64,000 bases of DNA from Sipunculus nudus. Taxonomy: Eukaryota > Annelida > Sipuncula > Golfingiida > Sipunculidae. Numbering within the stretch: the stretch's first letter is position 1; every line of letters begins with the position of its first letter. This document shows, piece after piece, positions 39,965 through 61,319 of the stretch. The stretch lies in contig CM049313.1 of assembly GCA_026874595.1 (NCBI GenBank), positions 18,659,508-18,723,507 on the forward strand, written 5' to 3'. A model generated the notes under the pieces. It did no database searches. It was not told the DNA's origin and worked only from the letters and a program-made list of their open reading frames with translations. A program made the position numbers and the translations under genes.

Positions 39965-40030
39965 AGGACATAACGTTTTACTGCAAAGCGGAAGGTCCCT
40001 GGTTCGAATCCCACCACTTCCTCGAAGGCA
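39965..40030 (+). mobile_element. tRNA-like fragment, SINE remnant or tRNA pseudogene
   Basis: ctgcaaagcggaaggtccct followed by ggttcgaatccc (B box, 40001-40012) resembles the anticodon loop, variable loop and T arm of a tRNA with anticodon TGC. The D arm and acceptor stem are not recognisable. Confidence 0.45.
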
Positions 40031-40039
40031 AAATCTATT

Positions 40040-41850
40040 CTCCATTCCACTACCACTGTCCACCTGTTTTTTTGTGATAATTTTTTTAATGCACTAAAGC
40101 TTATCTGTATTTACCTCAGAGGCGATCGTGGAGATTATCTTAGAGCAAAGCAGTACTCTTCCATGTAACGATTCCATATAATTAGAAATGACGCCATTGT
40201 TTTTTGAGCTCCTTCTAAACAAGTCAACACCGTCCCTGCGTCGCAAAGTAAATGTTAATTTCATACTAATTTAAATCTTCAGAAATCGCGACATTACCTC
40301 CTTTAATAAAAGTTCATTTTAAATGAAAATTAGGTGAATAAGGGTATTGGAAGAGAATATAGATCTATGCAATCTCGGAGATGCGCTCTGATGCCTTCAC
40401 GACAGGTTATGACTTTTGGCTTAATTATTAGCCACGTGCATATAAAACTCTGCAGTCCAGAAAGCTTAACAAAAACCATCATTCTTATTGTGTAATCATG
40501 ATTATCATCATTCAGTCAGTGCGATCTACATACTCAAAGAAATAATTGGGTTAACAATTTCTTTAAGGGAAACAAAACAAGAAAAAAATGTAATAAAACT
40601 AATCATACCCATTACCAGATACTTGTGGTCATACCACGTGATACAATTGTCTTAGACACCAAAAACATTGCTTGTTTATGTCAATGCTAAATTTTCAACA
40701 TCAAGAGACCACTTACGTCAAATAAATCTAACATAATTAAATTGTCGGCAGCCTAGAGGTTTTTGAGTGCTCTGTTAATCTCTCACCGTGATTCACTGGT
40801 TCTAGTTTATTCTGGGTGGCCAAACATTCTTGGTTGGTCGGTAAAGTAGGAATTTGTTTGTTTTTACACATGTACCATTGAATGAACTCGGGTTCCGTCA
40901 GCTGCGATAACCATTTGAAAGAAGCGGCAGTAATGAACATCTTTGACATGTCTGTTTGCAAACACAACCGCGTAGTAATACGCAATTAAAGCCTCAGGTG
41001 CGAACGAGATAAACAAATCGCAGTTAATCTGCTGGTGAAAACTAGCATGAACGATTTCCCCTGTCACTAAACTCTAGCAGAAACCTGTCTGCTTATAAAT
41101 ATTTACTCTTGGTGTACAAAAACACATGGCGTTCACTTTTATCCAATTCCTGTGATGATTCCAGACACTAAGTCACACCATGCCGTTATTTTAATTTCCT
41201 TTTGCTGTGATCAAAGTACTTCATATTTTACGAGATCCGCAGAATAGAGCCAAACCAGGACTCAAAGCTAGCCGGCGCCATAAGGTTTGTTCCTCGACAG
41301 TAAATTATGATCGCTAAATCTGCAATAGTCAATTCTACTCCCGCATCCAGCCTTCACAACACAACTACATGCTAATATATGTAACACTGGATAAAATTGA
41401 GTCTTCATAAAAGTAAATGTATCGTTCTAGCGTGCTAGACAACTATTATGATTATTAAATTAGATGGAGTTGTCCCCAGAGCTGTCTGCTTATTTCTTAA
41501 CCATAAATCTTAATGTATCGGACAAACCTTGGTTGGAAAATCGATTTTACGATGAAAGAATTAATTAAATTCTGAAGCCAATCCAGATTTATATGGAGGA
41601 CCACGATCATTTTTTTTTTCTCGTTTTAACATCTGCTTTTAAGAATTTTTTTTATCTGGCACTGCCAACCTGTGCAAGAATTAAGTATTATCTAGGTACA
41701 TGTTGTTTGGCAAGGAAAGTCGGGACCTGTAATTAACCCCCCGTGTTGGGAGTAGGCGCTCTCTATTTGTCTCTATTTTAGCTTTTTGTCCATCAGGAGT
41801 TGGCCTATTATTTGTTCTTTAATACATATGTTTTGACTATTCCTTTTATT
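40040..41850. other. No gene seen
   Basis: Two overlapping minus frames of 82 and 67 codons (40737-41067) have no recognisable domain. Confidence 0.45.
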
Positions 41851-41856
41851 CGTAAA

Positions 41857-42070
41857 CAGGGGCGGATGGAGAATTTTATAACATGGGGCGGGCTCAGCAA
41901 CCTGGCCTAGGTGAAATGTGTGCCGGAATTGCTAGCAAATTTTAAACACAACCCTTGCATGTAGAATATAAGAAAGAAAACGGTACGAGACGCAGAGTCC
42001 GGCGATGCTCTCGGTGTTAAGCGTGTATTTTTCTATTGCGTCCCCTGTGCCGCTTCTAAATCCGTCCCTG
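41857..42070. mobile_element. 214-bp MITE with about 16-bp terminal inverted repeats
   Basis: The left end caggggcggatggagaa pairs with the right end ttctaaatccgtccctg (reverse complement cagggacggatttagaa). The interior has no coding capacity. It is related to the copy at 16480-16678. The CAGGGGCGGAT terminus recalls hAT-derived MITEs (from memory). No clear 8-bp target-site duplication is visible, so the copy may be old or rearranged. Confidence 0.7.
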
Positions 42071-42074
42071 CAAG

Positions 42075-44830
42075 TGTGAAAGAACTACCTACATTTGACA
42101 TTCCCCTGTACCATATGCAGGCAGGCACTCCGTCCATTTGTCTTACGGTACAGTCTGGCTACAAAATAACATTTAGAACTCGCAACTGCAATTTTATTTA
42201 TTTCCCCCCTACTCCATGCCCTTCTCTATTTTGCGGTCACTCCACAATATTGTACCCCTTCTACCCAGCCCCCTTAAGACCTTTAGTTTGATCAATATAT
42301 TGCCAATCACGCGGGAAATTGAAGAGAAGTGCTTATATACAACAGACGTTGGGACGTTCTATTGTAGTCTATTTTTATTGTCTGAGCTAGGTAAATTGGA
42401 GGACTATTGATGTTGATTGGAAAAGTCATTGTCAAATCCCGTTACCAGATCGGGTTGGCCGAGGAGTAACATTAGCAAAGGGTACAAGGGTCTAAAATAA
42501 GTAAGGTAAGACCAAACTGTACTCTTGATGCGTCCAAATGGTCCTTAAAGTGCACCTGGTCGCGTTTCATCGATGGGAGTCCGGTCATGTTCCAGTTGTA
42601 GAGAGAGGTTTAGCACGCCAACTGAAGGGAGTGTCATTGTTATTTATAACCAATAAGCTGTATACGGTGGCACTAACGACCGTCTGGCGTGACGCTACTC
42701 TGCTCACCCAAACATCAGCCATCACAATGGCTCGCTTCTTGCTTCATCTTGCTCCTTAAGTCAACCCAGTCCACCGATTTTTTCATCTGTAGTTTGATGA
42801 ACAGCTCATATACCTCTTGCGACTCCATATGCGTGCTGGTGTGTTTGGAGGTTATATTGACTTAAAAAAAGACCAGCGTCAGTGTTTGTGGTACCTGGTA
42901 GGTATGAGCATTTCATAAGCAAATGTTCCTATTAAAAAGATCGTCTTTATCTCCAGATGCATTTCTTTTTAGGATTTTTTTCTTCATTTTTATTGTTAAT
43001 CAGATAATTATATCAATATTTACATTGTTTTTTTCCTAGAACAGATTAGTTTTGTGTTTACCTTGTTTTTTTACTTTTATAATTATGGAAGCCATGCAGA
43101 TTCAATATTTTTTGTCAATGTCATTTTCTGGAACTTCTTTAATAGCGATGATTTTTATTTATAATTCTTATAGCTGCTGAAGCATTGCACCGAAAATGAG
43201 ACTTTCCTTTAATAGTCTTGAACTTACCACGGTGTTTAATCCTGCTATAAACATTTGCATGAACAGTAAAACAATTAATCAATCAATAACAGACAAAAGT
43301 GTATAAAAAAACACTATATTAGGTTCGATGTATCAGTTTTGCCAATTGTCTTAATGACTTATGATATGTATCGTTTGACAAGTTTCGAATATACTCAAAA
43401 AAATTACATTAAATATTCTTAAAACCACAGGTATAGGGTTTACTCTGTTTCCGTGTATTACCGTCCGCATACTTAGTCCACAGGCCGTCATAAGAAATTA
43501 CATCCCTATTTTAAGTATGATTTGTTACTATGTGTACTGAAGGTGGCATCTCTTAATTCAAAATCAGTCAAAAAGTCATTTAAAATGAATATTAGATATT
43601 TTTACCCTGCTGCCGTGTTTTTGTTGATAGTACATGTAGTTATGAAATTCATATAAGTTTTCTTATGATATTTTAATCATTAAAAAATTTTATTGAAAAA
43701 ATGCGCTATGATACACCAAGTACCACTTAGTCACGTTTGAAGTGGGCTAATATTTAACTACATGAAACTATCTCACACTTTTTTTTTATTTCCTCTCCCA
43801 CGTGCCTTTCCTGTATAAAAATTAAATTTTATCTTTTTCAATTGATTGAAATGTGGACTTCTTATTTTAAGCATGGCGAAGAGAGAAAAAATTCAGATAT
43901 TGTCATGAAGTTTATATAAGGCTACTAATTAGTGATTTGCTGTTACTTGCTTAAAATAGCGCACCTTACAAACATTTGAATTTTTAAATATCTTAAAATA
44001 TCATATAAGAATGAATGTAAATTTCTCAAATATTTATACCACAAAAACAACACTATACTAGGTTTAAACTTATGAACATTTTATGGACGTCTAATATGAA
44101 TTTAAAACAACTTTTTAATATTAAATGAAGAGTTATTTGCCAGGATTGCTACCCTATGTGCGCATCATCCGCCATATTGGACCGCATCGAACTGGATCGG
44201 AGAGCCAGCCATTCAGGCGAATTACAGATTGGGAAACACGGACAAAAACCTAACAGAGCCCCAGGGATAGGTCACAAGGTGCAGTTTCATTATATAACGG
44301 TAATACCCAAAACCTGCTGAAGCAATTCTCCAGTCGAAAGAAATATTTTTTTAAATCAGTGTGCGCCGAGTTCCAGCTCATTAACTATGTAGTGACGTGA
44401 CCCATGGTTTTGCATGGTGGCCGCATAAAGTTGAGTGGACTGCAAACGTGATTTTAGGTATTTTCACTGCATTGGGTTAAAATATGATTCAAACTATCGT
44501 TTAATCGAAACAGAAAGTAGTTTAAAACATCTACATCATCATGTTTGAACACTAGATGGCGCTCAGATGCAAAAGCTGTAATTACCGTAAATGACAATTA
44601 CCTTGTTTCAAGGTACTACATTTAAAAATGTTCGTGTAATAATTTGCATAAATATATTACGGCTCTCGGTGTCAGCGCATGCTTCTTGAGTTAATGCCTT
44701 GGTCTATGAGGGGACATTTAGTTAAAGCACACTTACATCAAGGTGACATGATCCAGCCATCAGTAAATTACCGTATGACCTAACGTCACTTGAGTAATAC
44801 TCGAAGAACCAACACGAGCAGACTAACTAT
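42075..44830. other. No gene seen
   Basis: Strongly AT-rich from about 42900 to 44150. Three plus-strand frames of 64-73 codons at 42076-42759 show no domain. Confidence 0.45.
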
Positions 44831-44840
44831 GGAATGGAGC

Positions 44841-44855
44841 GGGGGGGGGGGGGGG
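44841..44855. repeat. Poly-G tract
   Basis: Fifteen G residues in a row on the plus strand. Confidence 0.9.
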
Positions 44856-45339
44856 CAATGGTATACTTTGACGCGATTAATGTAACATTGATAAACGTTC
44901 ACACTAATAAACCAAAACAAGTGAGTCAGATGGCCATCTAGACTCGGGCTGATTTGGCTGTGCACTTAAGTTGATGACATTTACACTCAGAGCGGCAGTC
45001 CTCCCTGAAGACAGTGCTGGTAGAGTGCTGTTGAAGCGGAGAGAATCCTGCCAATCCAGTGCTTAACCAGCGTTTGTCCTTGACTCTGCAGATCCAGCCC
45101 GCATCTGGTTTATCCTTGGTGAACTGGATGAGTCGTGTGTGATGGCCAGTCGTCCTCGGCACCTAGGTACGGTTTGATCCACCTGAATCGATGAGGTACG
45201 GACAGATGGTTGCTGACTTGGGGCTTCATTAGCTGCCCAATAGCCTCCATCTCTCCGCAACCTGCCGGGTAACGACATCCGGCTCTGTGTACCAGTCGTC
45301 CCTTCCACCGTTATTTGAACACATGGTGGCTACACGTAG

Positions 45340-45960
45340 CCCTTATTAAAACACCTGCTTGCCTTGTCCCTGATTCATATACCAAACCTACTTGACCTGT
45401 CCCTTATTCACGTACCTGCTTGCCTTGTCCCTGATCCATGTACCGTAATTACTTGACTTGTCCCTGATTCACATACCGTAATTACTTGACTTGTCCCTTG
45501 TTCACGTACCGTAATTACTTGACATGTCCCTGATTCACGTACCTATTTGACTTTTCTCTGATTTAAGTACCTACTTGTCTCTGATTTACGTTCCTGCTTG
45601 CCTTGTCCCTGATTCATATACTATACCAACTTGACCTGTCCCTTATTCACGTACCAACGTGCCTTGTCCCTGATTAACATACCATAATTTTCTTTAACTT
45701 CTCTCTATTCACGTAGATACTTGACTTGTCTCTGATTCACGTACCGTAATTACTTGACTTGTCCCTGATTCACGTACCGTAATTACTTGACTTGTCCCTG
45801 ATTCACGTACCGTAATTACTTGACATGTCCCTGATTCACTTACGTGCTTGCCTTGTCCCTGATTCACGTACCGTAATAACTTGACATGTCCCTGATTCAC
45901 TTACGTGCTTGCCTTGTCCCTTATCCGCATACCTGCTTGCCTTGCCTTGTACCTCTTTCC
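45340..45960 (+). repeat. 33-bp minisatellite, about 19 copies
   Basis: The core unit cttgacttgtccctgattca is followed by cgtaccgtaatta. Two length classes are present: 33-bp units with the gtaatta tail and shorter 27-28-bp units without it. Edges are diverged. The minus-strand frame ESGTSQVITVR is a product of the repeat. Confidence 0.93.
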
Positions 45961-45964
45961 CTTA

Positions 45965-47035
45965 TCCCTGATTCATAGTTACTCCCAGCGAATATCTGCG
46001 GACCTGGTCAGTCATTGGTTCCATGTCAAAATAATTCTCCCGGTCTACTTATGTTGCATGTCAAATCAGGAACATTTGAAAATATTTTATGGTATTTTCA
46101 AGTTCTAGTTTCCATAACTTCTCCTTTGCCTCTTGTATAAAGCAAACAGCTACAGACCAAATAATAACACAGGTAAGGAGAGAAGTTATGAGATGTAGCA
46201 TTCGCCCTGTCGTATTAATGATGGGGATTAAAGCAATTAATCAGCATTAATTAATATGTGTCAATGAAAATGGACAGAGTTGACTTTTGTCTGTCCACAT
46301 CTGTTCAAGTAAGGTTTCACGGATCTATTAATAGATTATTATGACATATTTATTCGATTTAAATATTCATTAAGATTTTAATATTCAAATCATATGTAAA
46401 ACTTTATTTTGATAAACACACTGTTGACTATACACACTGTACGCGAGGATTTTGATGCGATTTTATTCCAAAGTCACAATACGCACTTTTGTGCGTTTTA
46501 TCTGGGTTGGCTTGTTTAAGAACACGTGATAATTCTATTTACTTGCTTTAAGGACCTAGCAGATCAATTCATTATCGATTTTTTTATGAATACTATACAT
46601 CTGTTGATCTATATTGATTGTGTTTTAACATTCTCTGACAGTTCATGAAGGTCATAAAGATGTTTCTTATATTTTGCAAAACTGTGACGAAATAAGGGTT
46701 GCTGGCCTTTGTGCAGGTTTAACGTTAAATTATGATAGCTGACGGGACTTTCTGAACAATGGACATGGAGAGGTCACAGTCTCGAGCCTGGACCTGCAGT
46801 CTGAGAGTGTGCGACAAAGTATGGCCACTGAAGATTTGTTTTGTGATGTTTAAATGACTACACTAATCCACGTTTCATGCATAGAAAACACAAAAGAATT
46901 ATTCGTCATACAATCCATTATTGCATTTTTTTTCTGGTCACATGTGCGACTAGGAATTTACATGCCAGTGTCAAGATTATATAAAGCGGACCGTGCATGG
47001 AAATGAATATATAACATACATTTCAATAATTCAAG
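45965..47035. other. No gene seen
   Basis: AT-rich unique DNA. A perfect ttaatcagcattaattaat stretch near 46235 is the only local symmetry noted. Confidence 0.4.
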
Positions 47036-47041
47036 GGGAAA

Positions 47042-47078
47042 CCCCCCCCCCCCCCCCCCGGGCTCCCCCCCCCCCCCT
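47042..47078. repeat. Double poly-C tract
   Basis: A run of 18 C, then gggct, then a run of 13 C, then ttcgccc. The minus strand is correspondingly G-rich. Such tracts can form i-motif and G-quadruplex structures. The 126-codon minus frame at 46958-47338 crosses it (GGGGG runs) and is not credible as a gene. Confidence 0.93.
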
Positions 47079-48114
47079 TCGCCCGCCGCTTCCTCTGCAA
47101 CCGTTGTAGAGCTGTCTCTAGCCGCATAAATGCTGCCAACATCCATTTTAATTAACTTCGTCAAATTGTTGAAGCCCCTAAAAATAATACGTGGTTTAAT
47201 GATTAGTGGTTCGTTACCACAACTGTACTGTATTGAGCTGAGTATTGCGAACTGGCCCTGAAAAGAAACGGTTAGTGGTCTATTCATTCTATTCTTTAGG
47301 AGCCGCAGCCTTGGTTTTATGAACAGAGCATACCGCAATTCTGCACAATGACCAGTTGCGCTTCGGTATTTATAGCGCTTTAGCAGCAGACAGGGAAATA
47401 CCCGACGGTTTTATCAAGATAAAGTCGTTATTACCGACCTTACTGCCGTTTATCTCCGTACGGGCCGGCCTCTTGGGAATAAAGACACAATAGGTTTCTT
47501 TTCTGTCTGCTAAGCTGAGAAATTGTTTAGTGTCACAATACTCTCACTTCATCCAAAACGAGGCGTTTAAACCAAGTCGCTCCCAGCGACGAATTTTTTG
47601 CCCATGCCGCTTGAAGGAACCTCTATTATAGGACACTCCCCGCCAGGTGGTGCCAACACGCCGGGTTCAGTGTACATTGTTAGCTACCCTGGATATTTTT
47701 TTCGAAAAAGGACATCCTATCTCTGTCTTATAGGACACGTCATTTTCTACATCAACACTCGCTTGGAGCCACTAGCTATTGATTGTGCCTGGCGAGCTCA
47801 CTGTTCGTGTTGGTCCTCCAATTTGGTCTGGTGCCGTTGATCACTGTGGGGTTGTTCAGACACGCTCCATAGGATACAAGCTTTATACATTATTCGCTCT
47901 CGCCACCTGTACGTGTATATATAAAACAATCCTTTAATTCACTAATTCCATATTAACTAGAAATTTAGCAAATGATGTCAATTTTTATATGTTACGTAAT
48001 ATCTTTGAATTTTATCTAAGCTATTCCCCAAAAGGCTCAACTATCAAACCTATTTGTCGGTGTTTCCATATGCGCAATTATACGTATATGCGTTAAACTC
48101 GCTTATATGATATT

Positions 48115-48396
48115 GTAAATGTGGTGTTTCAATGTGTCCGTCAGCGTATATATGCGTATGTGCGTGATATTCGCCAAAGGAGTGATTATCGCGCAAAGGA
48201 TTCAGGATAAAATGACGTCACTTCACCCTCTTTTTGATGAAGACCTGCTAGCTCCACATTGTTCACAATATATACGTCTGCCAGTTCACGCATATATACG
48301 AGCACATGGAAACACAGCTAGTTTTACGCATATACGCACATACGCATATGCGCGTACATTAAAACAGCATGATGTATGGAATGTTTTATAGCCCTG
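48115..48396. mobile_element. Fold-back element with alternating-base inverted arms
   Basis: The left arm gcgtatatatgcgtatgtgcgt (about 48145-48166) pairs with the right arm acgcacatacgcatatgcgc (about 48334-48353). Outer words tgtttcaatgt and acattaaaaca extend the pairing. Further tacgtatatgcg and cgcatatatacg words lie just outside and between. The arms are almost perfectly alternating purine-pyrimidine, so left-handed DNA is possible. The 90-codon frame at 48119-48391 spans the element and has no known domain. Confidence 0.65.
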
Positions 48397-48710
48397 TGTA
48401 TATTTATTTTAAAACTCATATTTTTTACTTCATTAGTAATGCAACATTAAGTCACAGGATAAAAGGGTATTTGGGTTTGATTTTAATAATGCAATGATGC
48501 TGGTGATGTTCCTGATGACGGTGATTATGAAAACGGTTTTGATAACTGAAGTGATTATAGTTAAGATGCTCATGATAATGGTGATGAAGCTGATAATGAT
48601 GATGGTTACATTAGTGCTGATGTAGTTAGTACAGTGCTCGCAATAATTATAGCAGTCATAAAAAGGAATAACAACATTTAAATAATGATAATAATAAATA
48701 TTATTAATAT

Positions 48711-48766
48711 CAGTAGTAGTAGTAGTACAAGAATAAATATTATTATTAATAATAGTAGTAGAAGTA

Positions 48767-48802
<36 letters not shown>

Positions 48803-48803
48803 T
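48711..48803. repeat. (AGT)n microsatellite
   Basis: Runs of AGT/AGTAGA units interrupted by an attattaat block. The minus strand reads as poly-leucine in an 86-codon spurious frame. Confidence 0.93.
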
Positions 48804-48809
48804 AGCTAT

Positions 48810-49490
48810 ATTTATGTTATTTTTCATGTAAACAGTCTGTTCTTGACTTTTTGAATTGGTGATATTTGATTTTTTATATGTCAGTATATTGCGATACGCG
48901 ATTAGCATATTGTGTATCGCAGTGACACTTTTTCCCATCAGTACTTTCGATATCTTGTGACTGTATCTGATTTATGTAGTAACAATTAGGTTTCTGTTCC
49001 AAATTTAGACATCTGAATAGACTTGGTGAAAAGCTGAACGTGAAAGCCGTGCCTAGGACACGCCTCAGATCGTTCACTGGAAAATGTCCAAGTTGGACAC
49101 GACAGACCAAATGATCAAAGGCCCGCTTAGTGTATTATTGGTACCAAAGAAGTCCTGAACAATGTCATAATAATTATTAATAATATATTTATATTCTTTG
49201 CTTCCATCCTGTGATAACTGCAACAAGAAAAAAAAAGTGTCAAGTGAACAGTATTATGACCTAAGAACGACAGCCTTGTGATGTGTTGCACGGCTTTGAT
49301 TATGCGCACCTTCTATTTCAGCCTCCACACAGGGAAATGATTTATTAGGGCATATCCTTGACATTCATAGATAAATCCTGTGTGGAAAACGCTCTTTCCC
49401 TCTCTGTGTGAAACCAAGGTCCGGAGTTCTCTTATTCCCAAGTTATTTACACGTGTAAGGCCTAAATAAAACATGTTAAATATGTTTTTG
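48810..49490. other. Unique DNA between the AGT repeat and the HCN array
   Basis: No coding motif. A frame for the expected preceding HCN exon end (HPYSDF) was looked for by eye and not seen here. Confidence 0.4.
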
Positions 49491-49506
49491 TTACAGGTTT
49501 CACTCT

Positions 49507-51296
49507 GACCTGTTCATGTTAATCATTTTGATATATACTTATCCTGCTAAAACCTATTTGTGTTAATAATGTCGGATTGCATCTTTTCAGGTTTAATTGG
49601 GACCAGTGCATGTTAATTATTTTGACTTGCACTGGCACCTGTTTATATTAATGATGTTGACGTTTCCCTAGTTCCAAGTTTTACTGGGGACTGTTCATGT
49701 TGATCATGTTGACCTGTACTTGTTTCAGGTTTTACTGGGACCTGTTCATGTTAATTATGTTGACTTGTACTTGTATCAGGTTTTAAATAAACCTGTTCAT
49801 GTTAATCATGTTGACTTGTACTTGTTTCAGGTTTTACTAGGACCTGTTCATGTTAATCATGTTGACGTGTACTTGTTTCAGGTTTTACTGGGCCCTGTTC
49901 ATGTTGATCATGTTGACGTGTACTTGTTTCAGGTTTTACTGGGACCTGTTCATGTTAATCATGTTGACCTGTACTTGTTTCAGGTTTTCCTGGGACCTGT
50001 TCATGTTAATCATGTTGACTTGTACTTGTTTCAGGTTTGACTGGGACCTGTTCATGTTAATCATGTTGACGTGTACTTGTTTCAGGGTTTACTGGGACCT
50101 GTTCATGTTAATCATGTTGACCTGTACTTGTTTTAGGTTTTCCTGGGACCTGTTCATGTTAATCATGTTGACTTGTACTTGTTTCAGGTTTTACTGGACC
50201 CTGTTTATGTTCATCATGTTGACGTTTACTTGTTTGAGGTGTTACTGGGACCTGTTCATGTTAATCATGTTGACGTGTATTTGTTTCAGGTTTTACTGGG
50301 ACCTGTTCATGTTAATCATGTTGACGTGTATTTGTTTCAGGTTTTACTGGGACCTGTTCATGTTAATCATGTTGACGTGTATTTGTTTCAGGTTTTACTG
50401 GGACCTGTTCATGTTAATCATTTTGATATATACTTATCCTGCTAAAACCTATTTGTGTTAATAATGTCGGATTGCATCTTTTCAGGTTTAATTGGGACCA
50501 GTGCATGTTAATTATTTTGACTTGCACTGGCACCTGTTTATATTAATGATGTTGACGTTTCCCTAGTTCCAAGTTTTACTGGGGACTGTTCATGTTGATC
50601 ATGTTGACCTGTACTTGTTTCAGGTTTTACTGGGACCTGTTCATGTTAATTATGTTGACTTGTACTTGTATCAGGTTTTAAATAAACCTGTTCATGTTAA
50701 TCATGTTGACTTGTACTTGTTTCAGGTTTTACTAGGACCTGTTCATGTTAATCATGTTGACGTGTACTTGTTTCAGGTTTTACTGGGCCCTGTTCATGTT
50801 GATCATGTTGACGTGTACTTGTTTCAGGTTTTACTGGGACCTGTTCATGTTAATCATGTTGACCTGTACTTGTTTCAGGTTTTCCTGGGACCTGTTCATG
50901 TTAATCATGTTGACTTGTACTTGTTTCAGGTTTGACTGGGACCTGTTCATGTTAATCATGTTGACGTGTACTTGTTTCAGGGTTTACTGGGACCTGTTCA
51001 TGTTAATCATGTTGACCTGTACTTGTTTTAGGTTTTCCTGGGACCTGTTCATGTTAATCATGTTGACTTGTACTTGTTTCAGGTTTTACTGGACCCTGTT
51101 TATGTTCATCATGTTGACGTTTACTTGTTTGAGGTGTTACTGGGACCTGTTCATGTTAATCATGTTGACGTGTATTTGTTCCAGGTTTTACTGGGACCTG
51201 TTCATGTTAATCATGTTGACGTGTATTTGTTTCAGGTTTTACTGGGACCTGTTCATGTTAATCATGTTGACGTGTATTTGTTTCAGGTTTTACTGG
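49507..51296 (+). repeat. 895-bp segmental tandem duplication within the HCN array
   Basis: Bases 49507-50401 recur as 50402-51296 at a constant offset of 895 bp. The copies share irregular landmarks: the diverged stretch starting gacctgttcatgttaatcat followed by tttgatatatacttatcc, the unit with tttaaataaacctg, and the unit with tttgaggtgtta. One base difference was seen (t at 50286, c at 51181). This implies a very recent duplication or a haplotype or assembly effect. Confidence 0.92.
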
Positions 51297-51814
51297 GACC
51301 TGTTCATGTTAATCATGTTGACGTGTACTTGTTTCAGGTTTTACTGGGGCCTGTTCATGTTAATCATGCTGACGTGTAGTTGTTTCAGGGTTTACTGGGA
51401 TATGTTCATGTTAATCATGTTGACGGTACTTGTTTCAGGTTTTACTGGGACCTGTTCATGTTAATAATGTTGACGTGTATTTGTTTCAGGTGTTACTGGG
51501 ACCTGTTCATGTTAATCATGTTGACGTATATTTGTTCCAAGTTTTACTGGGACCTGTTCATGTTAATCATGTTGACGTGTACTTGTTTCAGGTTTTACTG
51601 GGACCTGTTCATGTTAATCATGTTGACGTAAGGTGTTACTGGGACCTGTTCATGTTAATCATGCTGACGTGTACTTGTTTCAGAATTTACTGGGACATGT
51701 TCATGTTAATCATGTTGACGTGTATTTGTTTCAGGTTTTACTGGGACCTGTTAATGTTAATCATGCTGACGTGTACTTGTTTTAGGTTTTACTGGGACCT
51801 GTTCATGTTAATCA

Positions 51815-51836
51815 TGTTGATGTGTACTTGTTTCAG
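51815..51836 (+). other. 3' splice site of the HCN exon
   Basis: The sequence ends in gtacttgtttcag directly before the coding frame. A ttgat at 51818-51822 and a ttaat further upstream fit the loose branch-point pattern YTNAY. The pyrimidine tract is short and broken by purines, so the site is moderate rather than strong. Almost the same sequence precedes most of the 51-bp repeats upstream, so this site must compete with many look-alikes. The choice of this acceptor rests on where HCN homology begins, because the family motif FR/FYWD crosses this boundary. Confidence 0.8.
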
Positions 51837-52000
51837 GTTTTACTGGGACCTGTTCATGTTAATCATGCTGATCGCCAACCTCATCATCCTTCCCATCGCC
51901 ATTTCCTTCTTTAACGACGAGCTAAGTCCACGCTGGATCGTGTTCAACACCATGTCGGACACAGTCTTTCTTCTTGATCTCATCATCAACTTCAGAACAG
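51837..52000 (+). CDS. HCN: Internal exon of an HCN (Ih) channel gene, S1-S2 region
   Basis: This exon encodes part of a hyperpolarization-activated cyclic nucleotide-gated cation channel, a plasma-membrane tetramer that carries the pacemaker Ih current. The translation starts [11 protein letters not shown] (start of S1), continues through [11 protein letters not shown] (end of S1) and the S1-S2 loop NDELSPRW, then [18 protein letters not shown] (S2), ending at FRTG. FYWDL, SDTxFLxDLIxNF and NFRTG are HCN signatures and separate it from CNG and EAG channels. The acceptor ttgtttcag ends at 51836 and the donor gtaagaa starts at 52001. The exon begins with the third base of an Arg codon (AG/G) and ends with the first base of the FRTG glycine codon (phases 2 and 1). 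It is 164 nt; the matching vertebrate exon is, from memory, much longer, so the intron after FRTG may be lineage-specific. S3-S6, the GYG pore and the cyclic-nucleotide domain were not found in the window. The first 35 nt are shared with the 51-bp minisatellite upstream. Confidence 0.93.
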
Positions 52001-52009
52001 GTAAGAATC
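52001..52009 (+). other. 5' splice donor of the HCN exon
   Basis: ACAG/gtaagaatc matches the metazoan donor consensus MAG/GTRAGT at nearly every position. It falls just after the conserved NFRTG motif. Downstream translation ([10 protein letters not shown]...) has no HCN similarity, which supports exon termination here. Confidence 0.85.
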
Positions 52010-52265
52010 GCAGTCACATATTTAGTAATAAACACACTACTGCCTCCTACCGGCATATTTCTACATTTATTTTTTTTCGAGTTTAATTTGATAAATTAAG
52101 CCTTATATTTGCACCTGGAATTCTATTTTGACCTTGACCTTATTCCTAGAGCCGTACATTCCAGGGCCGAACCCTATTATCGCTCAGTTGCGGGCATCGG
52201 GGGTTGGGTTTCCAGTAACCGCTTGGCTTTTGCAACAGCTGGTTGTTATTTATCATTAATCTTAA
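52010..52265 (+). other. Start of the intron downstream of the HCN exon
   Basis: No coding similarity after the donor. The overlapping 218-codon frame (51430-52086) simply runs through the donor to a stop at 52084. Confidence 0.6.
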
Positions 52266-52269
52266 TTAT

Positions 52270-52402
52270 ACAGTTTGATGGGCCGTCTTCCGACCATACA
52301 TACCGGCTGATCGGCCGTCTGTCCGTACATACCTACCAGTTGATGGGCCGTCTGTCCGTACATACAGACCGGCTGATGAGCAGCCTGTCCGTGTATGTGG
52401 AC
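52270..52402 (+). repeat. About 33-bp tandem repeat, four copies
   Basis: The unit accggctgatgggccgtctg with tccgtacatac recurs four times (gatgggccgtcttccg, gatcggccgtctgtccg, gatgggccgtctgtccg, gatgagcagcctgtccg). Confidence 0.9.
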
Positions 52403-52409
52403 TTGGGTT

Positions 52410-53030
52410 TTTTTTTATTATTATTCTAAGTATCCACATACTTGTAGTTATCATATTATTTCACAATTCTTTCTTCGTACCTTTATTATACACAACTATC
52501 GAACCTAGCGCAATTCGTTTTATAAATGGCAATGTGCCATGAAAAACAGGTACACTTTATATACTTGGTACATATTTTTCATGAGGCATAGTCATTTTTT
52601 TAACAACTTGCCTGAAAGAAAAAAGTACATTTATGTATTTTTTTGCACAACATCGTTTAGAACAACAAATAGTGACCCGGGAAATTGGCTACAGGCGATT
52701 TATCTAAGCTTTCGATGGGATGGCCAATTGCTAAATGAAATGTTGGCTGCAGTGTCGCCAATTTTCTCATTTATGGTCGCTTAAATCTGACGGGACACAA
52801 TTAAAAAGTACTGAATCTGATCCAAATACCCCGGCATGAAAATATAAGAAGCCATTACACACTCATCAGTGTCCAAACAAACAGCAGTAGATCTTTCGAT
52901 TTTTAAAAGTTATTCTAAATCTGCGGGAGTACAAGACGGCGATGCTGCAGAATTATTTACAGGAGCATATTAAACAACTACGACTTTGCAACTAGACGGT
53001 TAGATTCCTATCATTGCATCTTAATCCGTC
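52410..53030. other. No gene seen
   Basis: An 81-codon frame at 52539-52784 and a short open stretch LREYKTAMLQNYLQEHIKQL (near 52920-52980) were read. Neither matches the expected next HCN residues (ILDPxxI, SSIPxDYIF). Confidence 0.4.
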
Positions 53031-53690
53031 GGAAAATTTTCCGTCGTCGGCCAATGATCCGTCCGACAACGGTTGTCAAACGTATCCTTCCGGGCACCAT
53101 TTGACAACTTAATAAGCGGAATGGAATTCAAGAGATCCGGAGGTTAGCCGCCGATTAATCCCTCCGTCACCAGCGGCTTAGGGTTTTAAATGATATTGTA
53201 ACTAAGTGCGTGGAATTCGTGCGGGTTAATCCCTCCACCGTGCCCAGAGAGTTAGGGACGAAGTGACATGGAATGTTGACGGTAAGCGGGATTAACCCTG
53301 CCTGATCATTTTGCCACCGTTGGATATGAAACCACATGAAAATATAACTACCCGAATGAGATTCGGGTGATGCCCGGGGGTTATCCCCGATTGATACTTC
53401 CGTCGCCATTGCATTATGGAACTTCAGCAGAATTTAACTTACTGAACGATTTCTGGCGGTGCCCGGGGTTAACCCCGTTTAATCATCTCTCAGTCACCAA
53501 CGGGTTAGAAAATGACAATGAAAACACAGCATTTCCTAATTGGCCAGATAGGGCCTACTTCTTACGCCGGAGAGACCAAACTTAACATAGTTATGGAATA
53601 AGTGACAATATGCTGAAATGATAAGAATTTTGGCGATGCATTGGATAAGTCTCCGACTGATTCCGTCGTCAAAAATAGGTCTATTGACAT
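53030..53690. repeat. Degenerate GC-richer tandem repeat, about 65-90 bp period
   Basis: The phrase cggggttaaccccgattaat, followed by cctccgtcacc, recurs in varied form near 53141, 53221, 53286, 53371 and 53460, with weaker traces near 53030 and 53640. The inner word ggggttaacccc is palindromic. The block is more GC-rich than its surroundings. Confidence 0.65.
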
Positions 53691-53699
53691 TTTGTTAGG

Positions 53700-54770
53700 A
53701 AACAAAAATGAACAAACGCACACAACAAACAAAGAAGCATGATTTGTGTAAGAATATCTATACAACCAAACAAAATAAACATGGAAATGACATGGTTTTA
53801 TAAAAAAAAAAATCGCAATGTCTTGGAGCAGGTTTGGAGTCTGTTTTGATTTTGCAGATTACATTTCCACTGCATTCGCCGAAACTATAGATACGCACCT
53901 ACAGAATTTGTTTAATACAGTAAACAAACATTAAGTTCAGATAAATAGGAACTGTATAAGGCATGGGTTATTTAAGGACCTTGTGTGCGCCGAGCTATGA
54001 GAAGAGTAGTATATGGTTTAACAGCAATCAATCTGCGTACATTGTCAAAGCAAGAATACTCTCCGGGGGACTCGTGAACTTGGACGGTCTGGCACCGTCA
54101 GTTCTTTGGCAGATAGATATATGAGTGTAGCGTTTAACGTCGATTGATTTCATATGTTTAACGGTGACGCTCATGCGGTCGGTCGCCCTTGGTACTTTAA
54201 ATCCAAGCCCGACTACGGTCCTGCTACGATGTCCGTTACTTAGCAACGGCTACGTCACCTCGGCCCCGGACGACATAAAAGTGACTGTAAAAATTGATAG
54301 GAAATGTTTGTTTTATTTATGGTTACATTGTCATACAGGACCCGGCGTTCCTGGCTCTGGTAATGTTCCAATAGCTGAATGCCACCTGTCCGGGAACACA
54401 GGGTTTAAGTACGTGTCCCTGCCAAGCTCCTGGTAGGCCGATCACAGTTAAAAGACGAGCAAGATAAAAGAAGGCTTTCTCTGGATAATTATTCCCAATC
54501 GCACTACACTTATCACTGTGCTCAACTAGGGTTCTTTAAGCTCAGAGTTTCATGTTTCGAATCTTTATTTTCTTCCCTTGGGAACCAGGAATACTATAAA
54601 GGCCACGTACAATTCTCGTTTTAGCCCTCAACATTGCATCAAGTTCACCTGCGCTCTAAATAAATCACCTTAGCTGATTCGGATATCGTTTGTCAATCCA
54701 GTCGGAAATTTTTAAATGTTCGTGTAAACTGAACTATAACGTTCATATATGTAATAAACGGACGTGTAAT
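53700..54770. other. No gene seen
   Basis: Opposite overlapping frames of 72 and 90 codons at 54028-54436, without domains. Confidence 0.4.
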
Positions 54771-54772
54771 AA

Positions 54773-54774
<2 letters not shown>

Positions 54775-54827
<53 letters not shown>
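54775..54827. repeat. (AT)n microsatellite
   Basis: About 26 AT units. Confidence 0.96.
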
Positions 54828-54829
<2 letters not shown>

Positions 54830-57475
54830 CGTCACTCTTTATGTATGCCTATATAACTTTGCCTATATGAGGGTATTGTAATATTAAGTGAATGGTTATA
54901 GACCAAACCAGAACATCTTTGAAATATCTTATTTGTATAATTTCATAAGATAGATTTCTGCGCTATGATCAGCTGCTGACGATGGGGGCTGCGATTCATT
55001 TTATTTAATAGAGAACTGGACACCCGCGCAGGATGCGCTTTCTTCGCAAATGGCTTCTTGTTATATCGACAGATGAAGTCAAACTTATATAATCTCTCCT
55101 CTATATATTAAAAATATCCAAAATCCTATGATAAGGTGAAAAGATGAAATCTACTTATGGTGCCAAGTGTCTGAAACTTTTATTATCGCTCCAATCAGTA
55201 ACATTACTACAACTCTGATGCTCATTTAAAAATGATCCGTGAAAAACAGGAGCCGCGATTCCCTAGAATAATTTAATTAAAGTGGCCTGACTGATGGATA
55301 TCAAACCTCTTTATGTAAAGCTAAAAACGTTATATCGACCTCACTTTAAGTGTGTACACAAACCGTGGCGGACGTATAGATCTTTCAGCCCCGACGATTA
55401 AGATACGAACTTTGTTAACTAATTTTACTAATTAAACCTTACTTGTGCTCTTTTATATCAACAATCTATGTTTTGATCACTCTGACGTTTCCAAAAATGC
55501 TATCAGGTATCTAAAATACTCCTAGGAAACACGGCAATCCAAGAATTCCATATGGAGCGTCCAAGGCAACAAAACGGTGCGTCTGGTGTTATAAAAACCC
55601 GCTGACTCAGCAGATTAGTAGTTAGCTGTGGTCAAAAGCCAGTGCAAGGATGCACACGATAATGTCTAGACATTATGATATTAGACATTAGACATCTTGA
55701 TAAACCTTACTAGGTATAGGCAGAGTGTGTACATGTATGCAAACAGCACAGAACACCATTTACATACACACAACACGTGGTAAAGGCCTGATATTACACG
55801 GGGGTCGCGGGATCAAGCATTAAATAGGTTTGTGTTTACACGGACGGGCACTGGTACTATTACAACGCGCTTTCATCCAGACAACCCAAAGAGACCTGGC
55901 AATCACAAAGTCGCCTTTACTGAAGCATTAGCCCCTTCAGCCCGGGACTGCTGTTAGCTTCCGGGAATCTCCACAGACCCACCCCAGTACGCGGCAATAT
56001 CAGCATGCTGCCCTGTTCGGTTTTATTTCTAACAGTCACACGTGCTACTCAACGTCGCCCCAAGCTCGCAGATAAGGACCAATTTGACCTGTCTTCTCTC
56101 GGCTCCAGTACAGTGATGTACGACTCGGTACATTCCTGGCATTACAAAAGAAAATGCCCTTGATCCCGCTTTGTTTATTATTTTCCGTTTCATTAACCCG
56201 TATTCACCTAGTCTTTGGTGATTGTTTTATGAAAATCCTTTAAGTACCAAATACTACTGCAAAACTACTATAACATAATTTTTTGACACTCAGTTTATAT
56301 ATCTCTCAATGGTTGGAGAATTTCCTATTATTTGCCAGCCGGATGTCCTCATGCGCCTTTGGTCGTCTTGGTTACAGTTTTCACCGTCTGCCATACAAAA
56401 TCCGATTATGTTTTAGTTGTTTTTGTATGTGCTTACTACTATAAGGTTTCTTAATTTAAGAAAACTAATCCTTTTTCCTAACTACTCTGACAAGCATAAT
56501 TAATTGTGTGGCTCTCATTGTTTTAATTAAGTTCCTGTATCACTTTTACTTTGCAACTCACCTCTTGTACAGCGTTTCTGATTTTACACTGTTCTCCAGA
56601 ACAGAGTGGGAATAAGGAAACAAAAGTTAGCTTAGTATATCATGGAACTATTTATATGTGGATCTAGTTTGCAAGAGATGCATCTGTAATCTGTACTGAA
56701 TATGTAAACCTGATATCACAGACGTTACATTGTGTCCTGCTTAAGACTCAAGAAAAGCAAACACACAGACACTTTCACGCAGCAATCTTATTCACTCTCA
56801 TACATGAGATTAATAGTTTTAATTTTCACATTTCGTTTTTCTTGCTCCTCGAAATTTTTTCAATAAGGCTTTACTTTCTCAAAATTTATATATAACATAG
56901 CCATCTGTCTGTTATTAACGTCCACCTGAATGCATGTCGAGTTATCGTTACCTGTGTGACCATGAATGTTTCTGTGTACACAGCAGTCATGAAAATGACA
57001 TGACGCAGACAGTATGGACACCGAAAAACCATATGCCTCACGTCTCAATTGATTTAACAGCGCCCGCAAGAGGGCGCGCCAACCCGCGTGCCATAAGCAG
57101 GCTCACGGAGCACGCAATATTAACTTGAAATGGGAGATCTGGTGATTCACTTTCCCCTGCTGGTTTTGGAAGCTCGTATCCTTACTCAAATAGTGCTCTG
57201 ACTTTACATCTCTAACTACAGCTACATTAAACAGCTAGGGATCACAAGAGACCGACTTTATTCGGCCGTAACAGAACAACCCGAGGCTGGCATGCCACTC
57301 ACAGACACTGGGTGATACTATATGACGTCACCGGGTCATCCCACTGGCCCCCTTACGTTAACGTGTTTAATCGATTGACACATTAAGGAGCGCATAGAAA
57401 CACTCAAACATCTGGCCGTTAAAAAAAATGTACATTATTTATTGTTGCGTTTCTGTCAATGCTAGTGAACGAATA
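54830..57475. other. No gene seen
   Basis: Mixed DNA with a perfect 18-bp palindrome at 55659-55676 (ataatgtctagacattat), followed at once by two more tagacatta-like words. Confidence 0.45.
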
Positions 57476-57477
57476 TT

Positions 57478-57478
<1 letters not shown>

Positions 57479-57509
<31 letters not shown>
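57479..57509. repeat. Poly-C plus (CT)n run
   Basis: Nine or more C followed by about 11 CT units. Confidence 0.9.
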
Positions 57510-57514
57510 ATAGG

Positions 57515-59730
57515 TATTTTAACATATGATCAATTTCAGCCAAACCTGTCTGACCAGCATACTGACCTTTACTTTAAGTAGTGCGTCAGGTCCGAACCAA
57601 CTGTTGTACTACAGGGTATGAACAGAATTGTGCACAAAGACATTACTACTTTTTACATATTTTCTTTCGGTAATATCGAATTTATGTCTATAGCAAATCA
57701 CACTATCGTCGTCAATTTTGCATGCATTGTTTCAGATAAGCGTCATTTTAATTTATGCTCAGGTTATTATGATCGGTATATATTCCATATATGGAAGTCA
57801 AATCCGATCGTGGCCGTTACGTTTGGGTTTATATATCAACATGACTGTAGTAGCAATTCATGGTTGTCACTCAACCCCTCTTTGGCAACGGCTCAACATT
57901 GCCCAATTTTGGACTCGCAGTTTCGGGAACGATGCCAAGTGTGTCCTAAGGGGGCTATTTTCAATATTTCCCCGTTAATCCTGAGACTTAATTTACAGAG
58001 GGGCTAACCGGGTGAACCTGCTTGTCCATCTGTCGTATTTCGTATGAACTTATATAAGCTTTAAATTCAAAATAATGAAGGGTAATATACTAATAGGCTT
58101 GTATTATACAATATATTTAAACTGCCATGTCAAAGCTTCACATGTAAAGGATACCGTTTGTACTCATGACTGTGTGTTCTCTCCTGACCCAGTTACAAAT
58201 ATCGGAATACATTCATGGGACAGAGCATGTAACTTTACAACGTGCATACCTTGAATATACATTAATATGACAGAGCCATAGGATCCAAAGTCAGGGCCGT
58301 TTAGCTGTGTCTTTAGCGCTTTGATTTGTGAACCAGAACTTGGTGGGAATACAAGAGGGTCCCTTATTCACCTGTCACATTAGTACATCAAAAGGGAGAT
58401 ATTGTTTATTCGCTTAGATAATTGATTAGTTTGCTCGGTCATAATTTTACATTACTCTCCGTGTTGGAAACAGTTTGAAAGTTTAGGTCAGATGTTTTAA
58501 GTGCTATGATCAGTTAACCGTAACCTTACAATTTATACTGGACTCTCATATTTGCCTTTGACATTTATTTATTATTACATCTAGAGTCTACGTTTTCTAT
58601 TCGCCTGAATAATTCATTAGTTCGCGCATTCATAATTTTATACTGCTTACGGGAATTATAGGCATACTCTGGCAGTTTAAAGTCGGATATACGTAAATAC
58701 TGACTGGCCCACGCAAGAGCAACCACGGTACATTCGAGGCACTATCACAAAAGCTTTGTATACCAAATGAAGGCCGGCTATCAACCCTATTTGCCTCCTC
58801 CCTTTGAATGGGCACTTTTTGCAGTGGTACAGGCAGATACAAGCAATCGGTAACAAACAGCTTTGGCTCCAATTCACTTAATATTTAACCTTTCTTCAGA
58901 ACGAGAAAAAAATTACTACACAGAGTTCAATCACTGCGGGCAGATTTGAGCAGATTTGTGCGCCATGTGTGTGGTACACGCGTGTAAGGTTGTTCATCTA
59001 TATACTGGGTAAACACGTAGTCATATCAATGTTTCCCCTTTGTATGTGTAGAGATTACCAAAAGCAAGTACCTTTTTTCCTGCAGTTAACTTTATGATTG
59101 TAAAAAAATTGAACATGGTTTAACAAAATTTATAGAATAATATAGAATTATGAAGATTCACGAGAACTTTAATATAGGTGGAACATTGTATCTACATCCC
59201 ATAGGCCAACACTTTGTTTTGACACTTTGTTTTTTGTTGGTTTTTTTGGTTTTTTTTACTTTACCTGTGTCCTGAATCCTTTCTGACAAGAGTCAAGACA
59301 GCGCGGATGAATTTTAAGGGCTCTTCGAATATCTTTAGGAAAGAGCGTTCCTTTGAATGACCGCTAGGGAGGCAGTGTAAAAATATAAAATACCCCCTTA
59401 ATGTTATTCAACTAGTTTAGTCTTCAGGTTTTGTCGGGTTCACAGCAAAAGTACAAGCACACGTGAATTCCATGCATTCTTGGAACATTTCAATCCCGGA
59501 AGACCCTTTACGTTAAGAGCTGAGGGGCGCTCAGATCCATAGATTCGAACTCCCGTAATCCTGGCGCGGTGGAAAGACACCCAGTAACAAAAAATGCCGT
59601 GTTTTGACACCTTTTACTGAAAGAAAAAAGGAGCTATTTGTTAATCAACATATAAGTGGAAACATGTTTGAAGTACCCGACGCGATTTTCTAGCTCTTTA
59701 ATTATCACGTTGAACCAAAGGACTATCAGT
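57515..59730. other. No supported gene; a 129-codon open frame is present
   Basis: The frame at 57618-58007 (+) and an overlapping 86-codon frame in another phase show no domain. Searching by eye for HCN S3-S4 residues (WFxxDxxSS, RxxRFxK) gave nothing. Confidence 0.35.
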
Positions 59731-59735
59731 ATAGT

Positions 59736-59889
59736 GTTACGAAGACAAATTGTTCAGGGGAAAACATTGGTCCGATACCGGATTCAAACCCATGTGGGTG
59801 GCTCACAAGTCAGGCGTACCAACCACTTCGCTAGAAAAGCAAGCTTCTCTAGCGAGACAGTTCGGTCCGCTTTTATGTCACCCCGTAAC
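59736..59889 (-). mobile_element. tRNA-His-like SINE, copy 1
   Basis: On the minus strand: tagcgaagtggttggtacgc (a near-perfect A box, TRGCNNAGTGGTTNGNACGC), then cctgacttgtgagccac (anticodon arm with GTG), then gggtttgaatccgg (B box). This matches the layout of tRNA-His. A hairpin, tcgctagaga/tttctagcga, lies directly upstream and overlaps the A box. The ends are gttac and gtaac on the plus strand. Plus-strand phrase order is gaagacaaattgttcagggg ... cagttcggtccgcttttat ... ccccgtaac. Confidence 0.75.
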
Positions 59890-60010
59890 ACACCCCTCTT
59901 AAGAGCGTTCTGCTATCAGAACAAGACTAATTATCCCAGGGGGTCACACTTTGGTGACCTTATACCCTGGGCCACAAAGTTTACCGTCACATTGGACAAG
60001 CCCCAATTTT

Positions 60011-60152
60011 GTTTCGAAGACAAATTATCCAGGGGAAAACACTAGGCCGATCCGGGATTCGAACCCGTGTCGGTGGCGTACAAGTCCGGCTTCGCTAGAA
60101 AAGCAAGCTTTCTAGCGAGACAGTTCGGTCCGCTTTTATTTCACCCCGTAAC
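60011..60152 (-). mobile_element. tRNA-His-like SINE, copy 2
   Basis: The same orientation and ends as copy 1, about 120 bp away. The hairpin arms are perfect here (tcgctagaaa/tttctagcga, 10 bp). A deletion removes part of the D arm (ctagcgaagccggacttgt), but the B box is better (gggttcgaatcccgg). It shares caggggaaaacac/at and cagttcggtccgcttttatt with copy 1. Confidence 0.75.
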
Positions 60153-60330
60153 AATAGTATGTTTCGGCTAAACAGTAACAACCATTTCAAAATCGAATAC
60201 ACCTTTCGGCCATTTTTGTGATTTAAAGCTAAATTGCTGCATTCTTTTGTTTTATCTATAGGAGAAATCCTACACTGGAATGGCCGTAATATAGCAAACT
60301 TATGTGACGTTTATATTGCATCAGTCTAAA

Positions 60331-60395
60331 AAAAGATAAGATTAGATCAGATAAGATATACTTTATTAATCCCTGCAAAGGAAATTACATTGTAT
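60331..60395 (-). mobile_element. LINE-like 3' end
   Basis: On the minus strand, gggattaataaagtatatct continues into tatctgatctaatcttatc, a degraded TTATC/ATCTT tail. The phrase actttattaatcc(c), a purine-rich stretch, then gaaattacattg is typical of 3' ends of animal non-LTR elements (from memory). No reverse transcriptase is present, so it is 5'-truncated. Confidence 0.45.
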
Positions 60396-60399
60396 CCAT

Positions 60400-61255
60400 T
60401 AAAACGTCCTCTTATCAGTTCAGCTATTATGCGAATGTACCTCTGCCGCCACAAACATGAAAGCCAATAATAATGTTTCAATGTCCTCTAACTAGAGATT
60501 ATTGATATAGCTGAATAAGCCAAATACTGATATTTTTTATTTCATGGTATTTCTGAGTAGGATATTTAAATCCCTTCCCCTAACATTTTCCTTTTCCGGA
60601 GCTGTGGTTCAAATTATCGTTAGCTAATGGTTGTTTCGACAATTAATGGATGATGTCATGCAAATAAACCCTACAACTCCGTGGCAACAGTGACAAGTGC
60701 GATCTCTCATATGAATCCAGTGCCGCGACACGGAAAGACGGAGTTTTAATTCGGCAACACAGAAACAATAAATAAATGTTCTTTTAAAACTGCTCAAGTA
60801 ACGACACACAAAACTGTAATGTCATAATATCTTTTGTGTTTATTTTGTTCATGTAAATATTTCGATTTCACATATCGAATCCAAAGATGTAATAGTGATA
60901 TTAAATTTTATGCATATCACCTAATTCTACTTTAACCTTCGTTATCAGTGGACTTAACTGGAGCCACCCAATATCCGCCCCACAACAGGAATTTTCTGGT
61001 TGTTTGTGTGCAGTACACTTGACCAGGACATTAAGAGATCCCCACGCCTCTCCCTTACTCTCCTTCTACATGCTTACGTTGACGGGAGATATTAGTATGA
61101 GCAAATATTGCAATTCAATTAAACAAATAGCGTTCTGCTGTTTTATTTTTATGAACAGGCAAGTATGAGAAATTGCCGGAAATACCCTGATTTAAGAAAG
61201 TGTTGAAGTTTTAATTCAGGAATTTCAGGACATTTTACATCAGATACATATAATA
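60400..61255. other. No gene seen
   Basis: AT-rich DNA. A 61-codon minus frame at 60624-60809 has no domain. Confidence 0.4.
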
Positions 61256-61257
61256 AT

Positions 61258-61261
<4 letters not shown>

Positions 61262-61312
<51 letters not shown>
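61262..61312. repeat. (TA)n microsatellite
   Basis: About 25 units preceded by aataataata. Confidence 0.96.
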
Positions 61313-61313
<1 letters not shown>

Positions 61314-61319
61314 CCCTTG

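Follow-up and report, generated by a model that had tools for sequence, protein, structure and literature searches.

A 51-bp minisatellite repeating the intron 1/exon 2 boundary of an HCN channel gene in Sipunculus nudus is probably a neutral mirage

How does a gene stay readable when the splice acceptor of one of its exons has been copied dozens of times? This question is raised by a 64,000-nucleotide stretch of the Sipunculus nudus genome (contig CM049313.1, positions 18,659,508 to 18,723,507; hereafter the window, with positions counted from its first letter), in which a 51-bp minisatellite lies directly upstream of exon 2 of an HCN channel gene. An earlier note on this DNA had described the minisatellite as a 46-copy amplification of a live intron/exon boundary. 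Our analysis showed that the array is a mirage, a kind of structure already described in lancelets, in which a tandemly repeated unit spans an exon-intron boundary. We hold it to be quite likely that the array arose by neutral, self-sealing tandem duplication across the intron 1/exon 2 acceptor of a gene that looks intact.

The 51-bp unit consists of GTTTTACTGGGACCTGTTCATGTTAATCATGTTGA (35 nt, the start of HCN exon 2) followed by CGTGTACTTGTTTCAG (16 nt, the end of intron 1). Compared with the genuine junction, the consensus unit was identical at 34 of 35 positions in the exon-derived part and at 15 of 16 in the intron-derived part, which bears out the make-up given in the earlier note (the last 16 nt of the intron plus the first 35 nt of the exon) and, by the alignment that it had suggested, upholds the relatedness of the units to the exon start. 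Tandem Repeats Finder (TRF) gave the overlapping rows of this repeat scores of 1268, 2123 and 3246, well above chance. A wraparound alignment parsed the array into 47 units upstream of the exon copy that starts at 51837, and the former count of 46 was right within one. Among these units, 39 are near-canonical and 8 (units 2-5 and 20-23) are degenerate; the differences from the consensus amount to 14-19 over 51 nt in units 3-5 and to 0-6 in the core units (6-19 and 38-48, the 41-nt unit 44 excepted). The array abuts the intact exon (51837-52000) on one side, and its left edge is also in register, with position 49497 preceded by a diverged intron end, TATGTTTTTGTTACAG (Table 1). When a two-unit query was searched against the genome (1.43 Gb in 153 contigs), all 21 matches, a lower bound, fell inside the HCN array or its exon copy.

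As judged by homology, 51837 is the working acceptor. The translation of 51838-51999 matched HCN channels along its entire length of 54 residues (best E 8e-19), and the 164-nt exon 2 ends at a donor, CAG/GTAAGA (the slash marks the splice boundary), that scores 8/9 against the consensus. Exon 1 ends with AAT TTT AG, followed by GTAGGT; exons 1-4 joined via the acceptor at 51837 are open and in frame, reading ...NFRTGIIADN..., and the position of the exon 1/exon 2 junction agrees with that expected from the HCN alignment. The former statement that the array ends in the real, functional junction therefore stands at the level of homology. An HCN protein query gave 27 matches in the genome, and those near the window lie on the same contig, all on one strand: the N-terminal exon is found 92 kb upstream, and exons for nearly all of the remaining query are found downstream. 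Because the neighbouring exons fall outside the window, intron 1 is estimated at about 92 kb, and tblastn of an HCN protein on the whole window detected exon 2 and the array only, besides weak matches. Two long matches to the query on contig C10 had better E-values but only 30-31% identity, against 59-67% for the best exons of the window gene; we take the matches elsewhere as related, unclassified channels, and the window gene is likely the sole HCN gene. A Pfam scan of plus-strand read-through translations of 39,601-49,502 and 52,001-61,902 and a PDB scan of those of 52,001-64,000 gave no hits, both without a positive control for such queries. In the same gene, two similar S5-region exons stand in tandem (L044:1625-1825 and 2655-2792) and look mutually exclusive, and a pyrimidine-rich, intron-only array of 40 bp x 3.7 runs up to the acceptor of a later exon (L047:1819-1965, G000:C8:18792500-18798500).

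What does the splicing machinery meet in front of this exon? An AG precedes 41 of the 48 unit starts (47 units plus the exon), 40 of the 41 being decoys, and 37 of the 48 read AG/GT. YAG sites with at least 12 pyrimidines among 20 nt numbered 41 in the array (the real one included), where 20 background windows of array length averaged 16.65. The dozens of near-identical acceptors before the exon and the branch-point-like words, both pointed out in the earlier note, are thus present. As for donors, none in the array reached 7/9, compared with a mean of 3.95 in the same background; the best array donors score 6/9, and CAG/GTTTTA at the unit junction scores 5/9. A stop codon comes before the donor for 36 of the 40 AG-bearing decoys, and the last four stay in the HCN frame. 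In 25 independent units, the distinct changes in the exon-derived part comprised 6 synonymous, 14 nonsynonymous and 3 stop changes; because these classes are near the neutral fractions (0.19, 0.74 and 0.07), the units do not look maintained as protein-coding sequence.

The frame kept from four decoys and the 37 unit starts with AG/GT invite the reading that some decoys are used, the last four yielding in-frame isoforms in which the 17-residue S1 start is present one to four additional times, or blocks of units undergoing stochastic, dual-specific AG/GT splicing like that of UBC. According to an excerpt of PMC10809524, dual-specific AGGT sites are generally weak, and tandem-repeat genes are enriched in the introns that use them, which would suit this reading. 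We nevertheless regard it as unlikely, given the poor donors and the lack of coding constraint described above; in addition, the in-frame decoy at 51633 is preceded by AAG and has no good pyrimidine tract, four of the six clear mirages found elsewhere in this genome would shift the frame, and a repeated start of a transmembrane helix would hardly be harmless. It might also be supposed that the decoys tune HCN output, with upstream acceptors used at some rate, their stop codons sending transcripts to decay, and the length of the array setting expression. This would agree with the dense acceptor-like sites and with the stop codon reached from most decoys, but the exons in question would be at least 409 nt long and still need the donor of the normal 164-nt exon, the units show no sign of selection, and similar arrays occur in unrelated genes of this genome, so that we consider such tuning very unlikely. 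Competition or regulation by decoys, as suggested in the earlier note, is thus unsupported by the donors, the units and the stop codons; among the effects named there, a 'tolerated burden' comes nearest, and all of them keep some probability.

Positions 49494-50421 of the array (928 bp) recur at a distance of 895 bp with only four mismatches, which indicates that the array nearly doubled recently; a near-identical duplication of this kind fits a recent change in length. Furthermore, the distance of the units to the exon sequence rises with their distance from the exon (29 independent units: rho 0.66, P 1e-4; 25 core units: rho 0.47, P 0.017).

The explanation that we favour is as follows. A 51-bp stretch that straddled the intron 1/exon 2 acceptor would have been duplicated in tandem, giving the order intron-[intron end, exon start]n-exon, in which the exon-adjacent copy would always be complete (intron end, AG, exon). 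Because that copy is always complete, the duplication would seal itself; therefore, HCN would stay functional, and the extra copies would leave with the intron. Selection would see little, provided that the spliceosome picks the exon-proximal acceptor. Later growth may have proceeded by unit-level and multi-unit duplication, including the recent event at 895-bp distance, and the intron-side edge would have escaped homogenisation and then decayed. Exon definition most likely keeps splicing correct: it should favour the last acceptor, the only one that lies at a normal exon length (164 nt) from the donor at 52001, and the array has no good donor to compete; with a decoy, the exon would grow to at least 215 nt. 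For the real acceptor, the branch point probably now lies in repeat-derived, formerly exonic sequence (TTGAT or TTAATC), as it would have to unless it sits inside the 16 intron-derived nt.

Several observations weigh against this explanation. Measured against the array consensus, the units do not diverge in any clear pattern with position (rho 0.36, P 0.054 for 29 units; rho 0.17, P 0.43 for the core). Adjacent units are no more alike than random pairs (4.26 versus 4.21 differences), and neither result points to a particular mode of growth. The real acceptor has no local strength advantage over the decoys, since its string from -14 to +3 is identical in 16 of the 47 units; from -20 to +3, the string is identical in none of the 47 and differs by at most one position in 6. 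The 51-bp unit length is divisible by three, and the last four decoys are in frame, as a selected or tolerated isoform would require. The AG kept at 41 of the 48 unit starts could point to maintenance, but homogenisation accounts for it equally well. Moreover, the use of the last acceptor is a prediction from sequence, and the neutral expectation for the frequency of mirages, given below, is a rough comparison of coverage within this genome and no model. Selection on the AG was considered as well and not taken up; one consensus AG had changed among the 25 independent units (unit 42), too few events for a claim of conservation.

Another concern is whether the array, in whole or in part (for example, the duplication at 895-bp distance), is an artefact of assembly. 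The two copies of the duplication differ at just 4 of 928 positions, as such an artefact might produce. On the other side, 2.3 kb is within the reach of long reads, the units differ among themselves, the array sits in an 80.9-Mb contig, and the same assembly has mirages of other sequence. We therefore consider an artefact highly improbable; an error is unlikely for the whole array and somewhat less unlikely for the exact extent of the duplication.

Is the HCN array alone in this genome? Among 139 other exon hits, we found 6 clear tandem repeats that span an exon boundary, or 8 with the weaker L181 and L235, on both acceptor and donor sides (Table 1). The 139 hits, samples of 38, 20, 20, 21, 20 and 20, came from family searches and are not a random set: 9 belong to this HCN gene, 11 to its relatives, 47 are from 74 myosin hits, and 72 are from 74 kinesin hits. 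Donor sides were visible for 99 of the 139 hits because two of the 20-hit samples comprised acceptor flanks; flank lengths vary among the samples, BLAST self-comparison was used beside TRF only in these two samples, and one kinesin hit is split across two stretches (L137 and L142). The six clear units measure 31, 36, 61, 72, 82 and 83 bp, four of which (61, 82, 31 and 83) are not multiples of three. In the copies shown of the L185 array, seven or eight of the 32 exon-derived positions differ from the exon. A kinesin array at L153:284-712 (G000:C13:59087910-59088810) was not counted: its 17-bp acceptor-like units, TTCTACAG, hold no exon sequence, and the long array stops about 24 nt short of the real acceptor. 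L224 and L222 were examined and left out of the count too. A constant exon-derived length of about 32 nt, considered as a clue to the mechanism (35 nt in HCN, 32 in L176 and 32 in L185), was dropped in view of the cases with about 16, 14 and 51 nt.

Minisatellites (period at least 20, score at least 80) cover 8.3% of the window outside the HCN array; in the 123 sampled loci (190 kb, with the mirages counted in), the figure is 4.3%. With this much cover, no special targeting is needed to explain why a few percent of exons carry boundary-spanning arrays. The part of HCN intron 1 within the window holds further large minisatellites at 32171-34249 (47 bp x 44.6), 27795-29010 (63 bp x 19.4) and 10678-11394 (49 bp x 14.4). 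A 337-bp x 7.4 array was also seen in a myosin intron, beginning about 83 nt past the exon hit (L052:4294-6776, G000:C2:52515000-52524500), and several myosin-head hits to one stretch stand in a row at G000:C2:44848559-44852248, as with the mutually exclusive exons of a muscle myosin gene.

Table 1 Coordinates of the HCN array and of boundary-spanning repeats elsewhere in the assembly. Exon boundaries were set by homology and splice consensus; 'about' denotes exon portions estimated by eye or from a simple overlay.
Feature	Position	Strand	Remarks
Left edge of the array, diverged 16-nt intron end TATGTTTTTGTTACAG	49481..49496	+	11/16 identical to CGTGTACTTGTTTCAG; wraparound alignment begins at 49469
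51-bp minisatellite, 47 units (35 nt exon start + 16 nt intron end)	49497..51836	+	TRF, wraparound parse
Direct duplication, first copy	49494..50421	+	928 bp; second, overlapping copy at 50389-51316; mismatches at 49501, 49505, 49506 and 50286
Degenerate 5'-edge units	49541..49677	+	duplicated at 50436-50572; 14-19 differences/51 nt from consensus
41-nt unit, 10-nt deletion	51592..51632	+	TAA stop met by nearby upstream decoys; GTAAG donor-like word GACGTAAGG, 6/9
Last four units, acceptors 51633, 51684, 51735 and 51786	51633..51836	+	HCN frame kept; +68, 51, 34 or 17 residues before S1
Genuine final 16 nt of intron 1, TGTGTACTTGTTTCAG	51821..51836	+	
First 35 nt of HCN exon 2, portion carried by the units	51837..51871	+	
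HCN exon 2, from the S1 start; donor CAG/GTAAGA	51837..52000	+	HCN match E 8e-19; in-frame junctions with exons 1 and 3
Myosin mirage, acceptor side	L053:3488-3964 (G000:C9:5930000-5939900)		about 82 bp x 5.8, about 26 nt exon; exon starts at L053:3939
Kinesin mirage, acceptor side	L176 179-705 (G000:C5:1721600-1722500)	reverse	61 bp x 8.6, 32 nt exon + 29 nt intron end, 93% match
Kinesin P-loop exon mirage, acceptor side	L185 1-392 (G000:C14:445730-446558)	reverse	72 bp x 5.4, 32 nt exon + 40 nt intron
Kinesin mirage, acceptor side	L220 1-370 (G000:C12:42581739-42582633)	reverse	31 bp x 12, about 16 nt exon; extends past the sampled stretch
Myosin mirage, donor side	L213 587-958 (G000:C7:52358434-52359391)	reverse	36 bp x 10.3, about 14 nt exon end + repeated GTCAGT donor; extends past the sampled stretch
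Myosin repeat, donor side	L229:537-692		83-bp duplication, 1.9 copies, about 51 nt exon
Weak case, kinesin exon start, acceptor side	L181:111-364 (G000:C3:73321518-73322340)		diverged 60 bp x 4.2; probably an old mirage
Weak case, myosin exon, donor side	L235 623-916	reverse	30 bp x 9.8 around CAG/GTAAAA, about 7 nt exon

Some further sequences of the assembly were inspected. A muscle myosin fragment had its best PDB matches in 3i5f, 2ec6, 2os8, 1dfk and related chains (193 to 190.8 bits), which we take to be molluscan (squid and scallop) myosin chains; vertebrate and arthropod chains ranked below them, a result that points away from a lancelet host, and the margin over the first vertebrate chain (190.1 bits) is small. 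Genome searches for the GFP family and for molluscan haemocyanin gave no hit for either, which proves the absence of neither. This animal assembly also holds bacterial-looking contigs (C60-C62, C66, C72, C74, C75, C89, C123 and others). Together these carry nine cytochrome oxidase genes that resemble one another closely, and one of the nine is 58% identical to an Oligoflexia relative; the COX1 hits examined were bacterial. Their sequences suggest that these contigs stem from associated bacteria or contamination. An ABC-transporter search, whose 19 matches on small contigs were taken as bacterial, was not used.

What can be learned from these arrays? The HCN array amounts to a natural experiment in splice-site choice, with forty decoys, many of them locally identical to the real site, before a conserved channel exon in a gene that reads intact. 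Several percent of the sampled exons carry a mirage, on one side or the other, which suggests that such arrays arise in a minisatellite-rich genome whenever a tandem duplication crosses a boundary and that mirages are perhaps no peculiarity of lancelets. The greater interest may thus lie in the recurrence across the genome and in the clean test of splice-site choice than in the single HCN array. Two questions follow, namely, how exon-proximal sites beat identical decoys and how often such arrays become introns or protein segments. A much bolder extension, which we put forward as speculative and more probably wrong than right by a wide measure, is that in this lineage duplication across splice boundaries goes on throughout the genome, at several percent of exons, and, since each event seals itself, steadily adds AG/GT ladders next to functional exons; some of these ladders, HCN's included, would serve at a low level as dual-specific or alternative acceptors, giving S1 variants with one to four additional 17-residue copies and raw material for intron sliding or gain outside chordates.

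How, then, does the HCN array compare with known systems? A recursive splice site has the motif AG/GTRAGT, in which an acceptor is followed by a strong donor; the array, with its 5/9 unit junctions and no donor of at least 7/9, does not have this form. The comparisons that follow draw on excerpts of the papers cited. Polyubiquitin UBC resembles the array in having tandem repeats with AG/GT at the unit boundaries (PMC10809524), at 37 of 48 boundaries and with a unit length that is a multiple of three in HCN. However, the UBC sites delimit coding ubiquitin monomers, whereas the HCN units lie upstream of the acceptor, have weak donors and, with near-neutral changes and stop codons reached from 36 of 40 decoys, are not in-frame coding units under constraint. 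In human segmental duplications, internal tandem repeats meet exon-intron boundaries (PMC2812944), and in Drosophila, introns have been gained via tandem duplication of proto-splice sites (PMC2891723). These cases are like the HCN array in that repeats or duplications meet a splice boundary or proto-splice site and are able to alter gene structure; they differ from it in that gene structure was changed or introns were new, while the HCN exon 1/exon 2 junction is at its expected place.

The closest counterparts are the lancelet mirages. The earlier note had called the amplification of an acceptor together with coding sequence unusual; the amplification itself is confirmed, but it is not a new kind of structure, given the lancelet cases (PMC3087553, PMC3902484) and the 6-8 cases among the 139 other exon hits here. 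A general literature search among open-licence papers found no further animal group under the name 'mirage'. The lancelet mirages in Adh3, BflGb6, BflGb9 and troponin C (the last named as a case in PMC3902484, which also likens PGBD5 repeats to mirages) share five structural features with the HCN array: they are minisatellite-like, the unit spans an exon-intron boundary, the array runs directly into the genuine boundary, splice signals are kept in many of the units but not in all, and the interior is homogenised with the edge excluded (PMC3087553, PMC3902484). They occur on the acceptor or the donor side, as do the cases in this genome. Splicing and length instability have been reported for lancelet mirages, in that the Adh3 mirages show somatic instability, as cited in PMC3087553, and the Adh3 data together with globin RT-PCR (reverse transcription PCR) suggest that regular splicing is undisturbed; by comparison, the HCN array is known from the sequence of one assembly. 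Its 51-bp unit falls within the 10-72 bp cited for Adh3 and is shorter than the 150-160 bp of the globin mirages, BflGb6 included, and with 47 units, against 6 and 3 in the BflGb6 haplotypes (PMC3087553), it has many more copies than the published globin cases.

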